64,000 bases of DNA, from positions 3,522,915 through 3,586,914 of the forward strand of contig BCKC01000004.1 of assembly GCA_001600455.1 (NCBI GenBank). The letters run 5' to 3'. Below the pieces are notes generated by a model. That model searched no databases. It had not been told where the DNA came from and saw only the letters and a list, made by a program, of their open reading frames with translations. Below are positions 21,604 to 24,381 of this stretch, in pieces (the stretch's first letter is position 1; each line of letters starts with the position of its first letter). The translations under genes and the position numbers were made by a program. The DNA is from Endocalyx cinctus. Its lineage: Eukaryota; Ascomycota; Sordariomycetes; Amphisphaeriales; Apiosporaceae.

Positions 21604-22707
21604 TGGATTTCCGAGATGGGAAAACAGTTCTGAATGCCCACTTTGATGAACTTTCTGCGATTTGTACATACGATACACTACAAGACAATGGATGTTGGCG
21701 TTTATGGAGTTATAATTGAGGTTATTCAAAAGATGGCGTGCTACGTTGTTCTCCTATAGCTGGAGAAGGTACTGGTCGCCGTGAGGATTAGGTCCAATTA
21801 TTTACAGCCAGTCCAGGTTAAATCAATACATCAATGGTATTAAAAATTCGCCAGACAAACAAATACACATAAGAATCTTGCAGTCTTCATGATTAGTCTT
21901 TAAATATGGTATAGAACATTTGAGTGTGTCCCGTCCCCTGTGAGATTCTATACTTCCTGAAGAGTAGCCTACGACGAGGAACAGCAACCTTCAAATCCAA
22001 TTGCATTATTACCATACTTCCACAGTAGTTTAGAGGTGATTTTAAGGAGTATAGACATGTTTACAAGGTAATCGTGCCTCTCGTGCTTGTACTATCATTA
22101 TGACAGTAAGAAAACCCTGGAGCTTCATTGTTTTACTAGAGCAATCACATTACGCAATACAGTAATAACGGGAAGTATGGGTCCACGGGTCGCGTTTTGA
22201 TTATATAATGAAGCGGAATTCGTACGGGCCACGAACCTACTACGCAGTATGGAGTAAGTATCTCATACACAGTAGTTAGGAGCAGGAGATAGTTTTGCAA
22301 AAACAAGGTCATTTATTATAAGAGTTGGCAGTATATAGACTATCACCTTTCCAATTATTCTCACTCTAGTATTAACATATGAGCGATTGTCTTATTACGT
22401 AAGTGATACTGATTGAAAGCCAAATTCTTGGGGGGGAAAGGTATGATGGTAATAGCGGTTGTACATTTAAAACTATAGATTTGGCATCTGGTATTTCTAT
22501 TGTTACATGGCTTTCATACACTACACTAGAAAACAGATGGACACAGCGAATTTACTGCATTAGGTTATGCTTCGGACGATTGGCTTATGCGCAAACTTTA
22601 CGTACTGTTTGCTCCAAGGCGGGGGTAGTAAGAGGGGCAATGCCCACTGGTGGCACCCTCCAACTTGCCCATAATATAAAATGTTTTAACCACAATCCAA
22701 GCAAGTC
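21604..22707. other. intergenic region
   Basis: 1.1 kb between ost4 and the tRNA-Cys pair. A frame at 22403-22717 has no recognisable similarity and runs into the tRNA gene. No gene supported. Confidence 0.5.
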
Positions 22708-22837
22708 GGTTCGGTAGCTCAGTGGTAGAGGTAAGAACTTCCCAAATACTTAATAATCGCAACAATCATATACTAACGGAGTCAATAGCGAGAGATTGCA
22801 GATCTCTAGGTCACGTGTTCGATCCACGTTCGGACCT
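22708..22837 (+). tRNA. tRNA-Cys(GCA), copy 1, interrupted in the D-arm
   Basis: Exon halves 22708-22730 (23 nt) and 22789-22837 (49 nt) flank a 58-nt insert. Joined, they form a complete cloverleaf: acceptor GGTTCGG/TCGGACC (two G-U pairs), D-stem GCTC/GAGC with loop AGTGGTA, anticodon stem AGAGA/TCTCT with loop TTGCAGA (anticodon GCA), variable AGGTC, T-arm ACGTG-TTCGATC-CACGT, and U73, an identity base for cysteine tRNAs. The A box (TAGCTCAGTGG) and B box (TTCGATCC) are intact, and T-runs follow as Pol III terminator. The insert lies between positions 24 and 25, not at the canonical 37/38. Without its removal the last D-stem pair cannot form. Confidence 0.82.
22731..22788 (+). other. spliceosomal-type intron within tRNA-Cys copy 1
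   Basis: 58 nt: 5' GTAAGA, TACTAAC at 22771-22777 with the putative branch A 12 nt before the end, 3' AATAG. These are the signals of this genome's mRNA introns. The exact junction is ambiguous by up to 2 nt because AG occurs at both borders; all registers give the same joined tRNA. Confidence 0.7.
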
Positions 22838-22839
22838 CA

Positions 22840-22857
22840 TTTTTTTATTTTTTTTTT
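22840..22857 (+). terminator. Pol III T-run terminator, tRNA-Cys copy 1
   Basis: T7-A-T10 starts 3 nt after the tRNA 3' end. Confidence 0.75.
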
Positions 22858-22928
22858 CTTGATTTTATTTTTCGGTTAGATAGAAATGCACATGATATAA
22901 GAAATCTTAACTTCGCCCAAAGCAACCA

Positions 22929-23056
22929 GGTTCGGTAGCTCAGTGGTAGAGGTAAGAGAAATTCATCCCTATAAAATCAACGAAGCTTAGACTAACATGA
23001 GTCACAGCGAGAGATTGCAGATCTCTAGGTCACGTGTTCGATCCACGTTCGGACCT
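22929..23056 (+). tRNA. tRNA-Cys(GCA), copy 2, interrupted in the D-arm
   Basis: Exon halves 22929-22951 and 23008-23056 are identical base for base to copy 1 (72 of 72), but the 56-nt insert between them is largely different. The same cloverleaf, GCA anticodon, A and B boxes and U73 are present. It starts 91 bp after copy 1 ends, in the same direction, and shares only a short upstream word (AAGCAA) with it. Identity of the tRNA parts with a diverged insert argues that both copies are functional or kept alike by gene conversion, and that the insert is tolerated because it is removed. That last step is inference. Confidence 0.82.
22952..23007 (+). other. spliceosomal-type intron within tRNA-Cys copy 2
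   Basis: 56 nt: 5' GTAAGA, GACTAAC at 22990-22996 with the branch A 12 nt before the end, 3' CACAG. Only the ends resemble the copy 1 intron (GTAAGA, CTAAC, GAGTCA, AG). Confidence 0.7.
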
Positions 23057-23059
23057 CTC

Positions 23060-23085
23060 TTTTTTTTTTTTTTTTTTTTTTTTTT
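23060..23085 (+). terminator. Pol III T-run terminator, tRNA-Cys copy 2
   Basis: An uninterrupted run of 26 T begins 3 nt after the tRNA 3' end. Confidence 0.75.
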
Positions 23086-24381
23086 GAGGCTTGTAAATAA
23101 TTATTCTTTTATTATCATCCAATCTGCCTATGTTAAAGTCAACATGGTCGTTGTACCCTAGATGCAAGGCGATTTTTACTTTTAGCGTCTCGCTCTACCA
23201 CTACATCTCAATGTGCTAAATTTACACCCAGCTTCCCATATCGAAGGGGTCGAAAAACCGAGGTCTCTCGGGAACCCAAGCTTACCAGCAGTAATTAGTT
23301 CTCAAAGGTGAAACAAGCGGTTACAGTGTATTTTGTGGTGCCAAATCGTATATACGACTTTTACGAGAAGAACTTAACACTGAAGAAATAGTGTAAACAT
23401 GAATAGAGGGGCAGCAACAACCTAGAAATGAGACTACCCTTCACCATTAACACGAAATTCAGTTCATATGTTAGTTAGGTTTTGACAAGGAAGATGGATT
23501 GCCCAAAATTATCAAGCCACGGGTTAAATGCTGGGACTAAACTAAGTCGTAGTAGAAGGCGAAGAGAAAGGGAGCTTGCTATCCAAGTTGGGCGGGAGTT
23601 TTCTAAAGAAGGAGGTATCCATTCCCGCTTCATAGGGGTTTCTGATATCTCTTCGCAAGGTGCAGTGTTCTTCTACACTTGCTGGAAACATTCGTACTCG
23701 TTTATATGCACGGTGAGGGGTGTCACAGGCAACGCTAACCCTTCAAAAGATGATATTTTCTAAAACTGCTATTAAGTATCTAGATAGCATCTATAGGCAA
23801 GTAAAAATACGAGCAGCGAAGTACGTTAAATTTACACCATCAAAGAGATTTTGAAAAAAAAAAAAAAAAGGCAAAGAAATTCGCATGTAACGCTTTACTT
23901 TGGTGACTAACTTGGACTCGAACGGACTACGAGTACTCGTACTCTGTACGGAGTAAATTTGACACATATAAGTTTTAGCGGGACTGTCTGATAGGTCAAA
24001 CGACGTATAACCGGAAACAGTTGGAATGTCTCGAATGAAGAGTTATAAAAATAAAATGATTAAGTAAGTTAGATAAATAATAATTGGAAAATAGATATAT
24101 TCTTATGGATATTTATTCTATCATGAAAATAAAAAATAAAAAGAAGAAAAAAAACTCTAATACCTACCTAACTAAGATCCATACCAACTTGTAAGTGTCA
24201 TCGTTGACTCTTAAAGCCTTACAAGTATAAGCATGAAACGACCTACGGAGTACTAGGTTAGTATATATAGAATATAGCTGAGATTTTTAATTAACCATCA
24301 AAGCCACCTTAACCATTCCAGTAACTGCTTCCATTGTGTATTGTATGTAATTCAAGGAGCCTAAGATTGAATGAAAAAAAA

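Follow-up and report, generated by a model that had tools for sequence, protein, structure and literature searches.

Probable spliceosomal introns in the D-stem of the tandem tRNA-Cys(GCA) genes of Endocalyx cinctus

The two tRNA-Cys(GCA) genes that we found in the genome of Endocalyx cinctus are both interrupted in the D-stem, between tRNA positions 24 and 25, and we consider it very probable that the inserts are spliceosomal introns of working nuclear genes. Since the only tRNA-Cys genes found carry introns like those of protein-coding genes, the sequences suggest that this fungus must rely on the mRNA-splicing machine to make its cysteine-decoding tRNA, in place of the enzyme that usually cuts tRNA precursors. 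The genes lie in a stretch of 64,000 nucleotides, referred to here as the window (G000:C4:3522915-3586914), and the genome searched comprises 44.76 Mb on 15 contigs.

Both genes are encoded in tandem on the forward strand of the window, at 22708-22837 (copy A) and 22929-23056 (copy B). Exon 1 of copy A (22708..22730) covers tRNA positions 1-24 and contains the A box, and exon 2 (22789..22837) covers positions 25-73 with the anticodon GCA and U73. The spliceosomal-type intron between them (22731..22788, 58 nt) reads GTAAGA...CTAAC...TAG, with the branch-site motif CTAAC at 22773..22777 and the branch A at 22776, 12 nt from the intron end. In copy B, exon 1 (22929..22951) is followed by a 56-nt insert of the same type (22952..23007, GTAAGA...CTAAC...CAG; motif CTAAC at 22992..22996, branch A at 22995, again 12 nt from the end) and by exon 2 (23008..23056), also with anticodon GCA and U73. 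The exon halves of the two copies are identical (23/23 and 49/49, or 72/72 in all), and the inserts are unlike. The coordinates thus confirm to the base what a sequence-only reading of this DNA had described, namely a tandem pair with identical exons, inserts of 58 and 56 nt at 24/25, and in each insert GTAAGA, a CTAAC with its branch A 12 nt from the end, and a final AG. The same reading had held that removal of the insert restores a complete cloverleaf with U73. The joined exons do fold into such a cloverleaf with a GCA anticodon, and ARAGORN names it tRNA-Cys(gca).

The B box, to use the established name of this tRNA-gene promoter motif, was read from the sequence as GTTCGATCC at 22817..22825 in copy A and at 23036..23044 in copy B. 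A T-run resembling a Pol III terminator (22840..22846 and 23060..23085, also read from the sequence) starts 2 or 3 bases past exon 2 in the two genes, and a TATA-like ATATAA (22674..22679 and 22895..22900) sits 34 to 29 nt before exon 1, at the same spacing in both. In a survey of 58 tRNA genes, TTTT followed within 60 nt downstream in every case, and 24 of the genes had a TATA-like element 60-20 nt upstream. Outside the exons the copies diverge, with 41/62 identical positions in the inserts, 34/61 in the 60 nt upstream and 39/65 in the 60 nt downstream. Identical exons beside differing inserts and flanks are what one would expect if the exons were under selection or conversion.

Standard tools can overlook genes of this build. 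tRNA gene prediction over the whole window called none, and an Rfam scan of the window returned nothing at gathering score; a lenient Rfam scan of 22600-23200 recovered mostly the 3' halves of the two Cys genes, at 24.0 and 22.2 bits. When ARAGORN was allowed long introns on the four unspliced genes (the Cys pair and two tRNA-Lys genes described below), it named three of them Gly, Pro or Gly, and copy B alone was identified correctly. For tRNAscan-SE 2.0, the relevant part of PMC8450103 presents the detection of non-canonical introns under the archaeal mode. Since genes of this kind can go unseen or receive a wrong name in tRNA predictions, there may be more of them than the cases reported here.

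To judge the inserts, we compared them with spliceosomal introns from protein-coding genes of the window. When homologous proteins were aligned to three of its genes with splicing allowed, ten introns with lengths of 50-92 nt were obtained; the aligner itself demands GT-AG ends, and the last intron of the acetyl-CoA synthetase gene, near the C-terminus, is the least certain of the ten. A CTAAC or CTAAT occurs in nine of these introns and CTGAC in the tenth, and the nearest branch A lies 22, 13, 12, 12, 21, 16, 19, 12, 12 and 13 nt from the intron end. All four tRNA inserts (58, 56, 58 and 56 nt, two in Cys and two in Lys genes) begin with GT, contain CTAAC or CTAAT with the branch A 12, 12, 14 and 12 nt from the end, and close with AG. 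They therefore have the terminal dinucleotides, the branch motif at its proper distance and the length within the host range that mark U2-type introns. In shuffled inserts, the pattern GT...CTAAY...AG with the motif 8-24 nt from the end arose in 47 and 57 (Cys) and in 55 and 34 (Lys) of 400,000 trials each. Since AG ends both exon 1 and the insert, the junction can be slid by 2 bases and the register used here is one of three, which weakens this chance argument by at most 3-fold per insert. The protein genes of the window are closest to those of Xylariales: the acetyl-CoA synthetase is 91% identical to that of Xylariaceae sp. FL1272, the NRC-2 kinase is closest to Daldinia, Xylariaceae, Anthostomella and Biscogniauxia, and RFC5 to Annulohypoxylon.

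We also asked whether the genome contains other tRNA-Cys(GCA) genes. A search for the Cys 5' half with up to 3 mismatches gave two matches in the genome, both in the window (control: 0), and the joined 72-mer matched nothing beyond these two genes at E values up to 10. The pattern TGCARN{14,15}GTTCRANYC, which describes a Cys(GCA) 3' half free of any 37/38 intron, was run on both strands and had 16 genome matches against 27 for the reversed control pattern; among these 16, only the two window copies form the anticodon stem and the T stem completely (5/5 each), the next best match reaching 5/5 and 3/5. Cys was also absent from the 58 tRNA matches of an Rfam family search in which 63 of 1473 candidates were scored; the anticodons of several intron-bearing genes among these matches were corrected by eye. 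The window pair are thus the only tRNA-Cys(GCA) genes found, and the uninterrupted copy elsewhere that the sequence-only reading had proposed to look for did not turn up in the 5'-half, 72-mer and 3'-half searches of the genome; these searches could overlook a Cys gene that has diverged and has a 37/38 intron, or that lies in a gap or in masked sequence.

A wider survey by B box and T-run gave 101 matches (reversed control: 30). When 19 loci outside the 58, together with locus L076 and the U6 stretch described below, were submitted to ARAGORN, 13 of the 21 sequences were called as tRNAs, 12 of them with an intron within or next to the anticodon loop (Glu, Pro, Ser, Arg, Ala, Phe, His); the call for L076, a Trp with a 70-nt intron, is doubtful. 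By eye, we inspected seven loci of this survey, L076 included. Several anticodons, for example Gly-GCC, Tyr and Val-CAC, were not located in the tRNA survey, so the gene list is incomplete.

The survey also produced some loci of separate interest. At L037 (G000:C6:1523641-1523790), a tRNA-like gene, ARAGORN called a tRNA-SeC(tca) with a 77-nt intron, and a UGA-reading tRNA would be unexpected in an ascomycete. Two further loci, L121 (G000:C5:55372-55599) and L122 (G000:C6:814350-814577), combine an A-box-like element, a B box and a T-run, gave no tRNA by ARAGORN and share, by eye, a nearly identical stretch upstream; from their sequences they could perhaps encode a Pol III non-coding RNA. The same three elements, again with no tRNA called by ARAGORN, are found at L124 (G000:C7:1014900-1015127) and L125 (G000:C7:1856083-1856310). 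In the tRNA-like loci L076 (around G000:C1:3203039) and L132 (G000:C11:139888-140115), the acceptor halves seem by eye to pair, and the middle does not form a standard cloverleaf.

Interruption at 24/25 is shared by a second tRNA family. Five tRNA-Lys(CUU) genes were found, of which two are uninterrupted (L003, L004), one has, by eye, a short 37/38 intron (L022) and two are split at 24/25 (L063, L064). The insert of L063, on G000:C6, is 58 nt long (GTTAGT...CTAAC...CAG, 14 nt after the branch A), and that of L064, on G000:C10, is 56 nt long (GTCAGT...CTAAT...CAG, 12 nt after the branch A). The exons and the 3' trailer of these interrupted genes are as in the three other Lys(CUU) genes. Because three of the five genes found are free of a D-stem insert, the Lys inserts could be tolerated damage. 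All five Lys(CUU) genes have a like trailer, CAATTCCCGRTGCCTC...GRGATRTCA, about 45 nt downstream and before a late T-run. The trailers of L063 and L064 each fold as a hairpin, with arm differences that compensate each other, and the other three look alike by eye. This trailer may be a conserved 3' RNA made together with the tRNA.

The D-arm pattern GCTCA...AGAG followed by GT matches the genome four times, at the two Cys and the two Lys genes (reversed control: 2), and the same motif occurs without interruption in 13 of the 58 tRNA genes. For further tRNAs with D-stem introns we used patterns of an A box followed by GTNNG, which covered D-arms of the TAGC and TGGC forms. The TAGC form gave 18 matches, including the four known genes (reversed control: 30), and the TGGC form 25 (reversed control: 21). 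ARAGORN called no tRNA in the 14 of the 39 other matches that were examined (9/14 TAGC, 5/25 TGGC); among the other 25, some are by eye 5' portions of ordinary tRNAs known from the survey. The same arrangement had no match in viral and prokaryotic contigs, which was expected and is uninformative on fungi. As to the history of the inserts, we compared their similarity with that of shuffled versions in which the splice signals were held. The observed value was reached by 22/500 shuffles for the Cys pair, by 254/500 for the Lys pair and by 36, 38, 375 and 231 of 500 for the Cys-Lys pairs, values that establish neither a common origin nor separate gains. The shared site in Cys and Lys genes could have arisen by repeated insertion at a proto-splice site, GGTAGAG/CG, or by recombination that spread the insert between like D-arms.

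The U6 snRNA of this genome offers a precedent. In an Rfam family search with 48 of 2990 candidates scored, one U6 match among the 15 listed exceeded the family cut-off (locus L135, G000:C1:2248800-2249100). Read by eye, this gene contains a 63-nt intron, GTAAGT...TTCTAAC...CAG (G000:C1:2248916-2248978), directly before ACAGAGA, with the branch A of CTAAC 14 nt from the intron end; the family match begins within the intron. The intron also includes a B-box-like GTTCGATTC, and the U6 intron of fission yeast likewise contains a B box. Fungal U6 introns have reportedly been treated by Canzler et al. 2016. The sequence-only reading had invoked mRNA-type introns in fungal U6 as a parallel, and the U6 gene of the same genome proves to have one. 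In S. pombe, according to the portion of PMC8917221 consulted, U6 is a Pol III product whose intron is excised by the spliceosome. With an mRNA-type intron in the sole U6 gene above the cut-off, the spliceosome of E. cinctus probably already handles a Pol III transcript. The two situations differ in the host molecule, which is a spliceosomal RNA in the case of U6 and a tRNA in the case described here, where the D-stem of a decoding molecule is split.

By the textbook account, it is the tRNA endonuclease that cuts nuclear tRNA introns. The inserts could be non-canonical tRNA introns for which the Sen complex does the cutting and tRNA ligase the sealing, a route that has been proposed for the D-arm introns of Cyanidioschyzon merolae. 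That eukaryotic introns outside 37/38 exist and that eukaryotic endonucleases can cut a bulge-helix-bulge (BHB) is stated in the available text of PMC4090602, and the present genome has 37/38 introns in many tRNA genes. Our four genes are all split at 24/25 instead, in the D-arm, away from the anticodon loop to which measuring is held to guide the enzyme; the same text considers the eukaryotic enzyme to measure from the tRNA body, yet able to cut BHB motifs. Taking as BHB two 3-nt bulges around a 4-bp helix at the junctions, with flanking helices, we found that, over the allowed registers, the four inserts form at best 6, 5, 6 and 6 of the 10 pairs. This is not above chance for any of them, since 6460, 14336, 13006 and 13091 of 20,000 shuffled inserts pair as well or better. 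Copy A is the sole insert for which the 4-bp central helix is possible, but it has only one of three pairs on each side. The BHB at the junctions that the sequence-only reading had named as the mark of the endonuclease is thus indistinguishable from shuffled sequence. That reading had also argued that the insert opens the D-stem. This is true of the fourth pair, G10-C25, which is broken; the remaining three, with both strands in exon 1, could still pair. Their predicted ensemble probability is 0.06, 0.05, 0.00 and 0.01 in the four genes, and the minimum-energy folds of three genes lack them. One of these three folds, that of an interrupted Lys gene (LysB), retains the stems of the acceptor, anticodon and T arms. 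In copy B, the minimum-energy fold combines all three D-stem pairs with these stems. Since the pairs can form in a precursor, the argument from a lost tRNA body is weaker than it had first been put, and these folds speak for the endonuclease. Cutting by this enzyme would nevertheless predict no branch-site motif at a near-constant distance, and such a motif is seen in 4/4 inserts. Taken together, we regard this route as very unlikely. Self-splicing introns were also considered and rejected: group I and II introns have a catalytic core and are over 200 nt long, and the inserts measure 56-58 nt, with no group I/II match in the two Rfam scans described above.

If the interrupted genes were pseudogenes, another tRNA-Cys, absent from the assembly or too diverged for our searches, would have to supply the cell. 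The available text of PMC4090602 lends this some plausibility, as it places D- and T-arm insertions of eukaryotes mostly in one of many synonymous genes, which are supposed to be pseudogenes, and three of the five Lys(CUU) genes found here indeed have no D-stem insert. For cysteine the situation is different from that of these supposed pseudogenes, because no gene other than the two interrupted ones was found. The genome searches gave no further tRNA-Cys(GCA), the exons agree at 72/72 positions beside differing introns and flanks, both copies retain the equally spaced TATA-like element and the T-run, and chance insertions would not produce GT...CTAAY...AG in 4/4 cases. Pseudogene status of the Cys pair is therefore unlikely, and its combination with a hidden supplier gene seems to us highly improbable. 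The genes might also be spliced and yet serve mainly a regulatory role, for instance as an intron-retention switch on tRNA-Cys supply. The mixture of interrupted and uninterrupted genes in the Lys(CUU) set would fit such a role, but nothing in the data points to regulation, and because no other tRNA-Cys(GCA) was seen, the two copies must also decode; we give this idea almost no weight.

Spliceosomal removal of the inserts, which the sequence-only reading had suggested and which our results support, remains the explanation that we favor, and it could proceed as follows. Both Cys genes, each with an ordinary U2-type intron in the D-stem at 24/25, would be transcribed by Pol III. U1 and U6 would recognize GTAAGA, branching would occur at the A of CTAAC, and the 3' cut would follow the AG. 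This would join G24 to C25 and complete the D-arm, after which end processing, charging and otherwise normal maturation could take place. The 5' exon, which is only 23-24 nt long and, as a Pol III product, presumably uncapped, counts against this scheme. If pre-tRNA-Cys is spliced in this way, cytosolic cysteine decoding would depend on the spliceosome.

Parts of this arrangement are known from other systems. Fungal U3 snoRNA is likewise a small structured RNA with GT-AG introns, which the consulted text of PMC5832005 terms normal spliceosomal introns, and there the branch point of U3 seems to lie 15 nt from the acceptor. As small structured RNAs often interrupted by introns, that text (2017) gives only U3 and U6, and tRNA is not named in it. 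Introns in the D- and T-arms of tRNA genes occur in C. merolae and in cryptophyte and chlorarachniophyte nucleomorphs, and the tRNA-Cys(GCA) of Guillardia theta has three (PMC4090602, in the portion consulted). According to the same portion of PMC4090602, the introns of C. merolae are tied to BHB motifs and tRNA endonuclease, unlike the present inserts, for which no BHB above chance was found, and the insertions of G. theta measure 3-24 nt, in contrast to 56-58 nt with splice signals here. Within the genome itself, the D-stem inserts with spliceosomal signals at 24/25 stand apart from the canonical 37/38 introns of many tRNAs and, by eye, of L022. In the open-licence literature without preprints, no title or abstract start among the matches listed described a spliceosomal intron in a tRNA gene, and the phrases "spliceosomal intron(s) in tRNA" and "tRNA splicing by spliceosome" had 0 occurrences among the matches listed. 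Each ingredient is known; the novelty would lie in the host, a further and essential class of RNA that carries an ordinary spliceosomal intron.

Judging from the genes found, it is likely that in this lineage all cytosolic tRNA-Cys, part of tRNA-Lys(CUU) and U6 depend on the spliceosome, the introns having settled in two tRNA families at one D-stem site, GGTAGAG/CG, and having tied the translation of every cysteine codon to pre-mRNA splicing. On this reading, spliceosomal introns would be able to establish themselves in tRNA genes. If this is true, a spliceosome-dependent tRNA would join two systems that have been thought separate, and cysteine decoding would become a read-out of spliceosome activity. 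With these genes, one could then also test by what route a Pol III transcript comes to the spliceosome.
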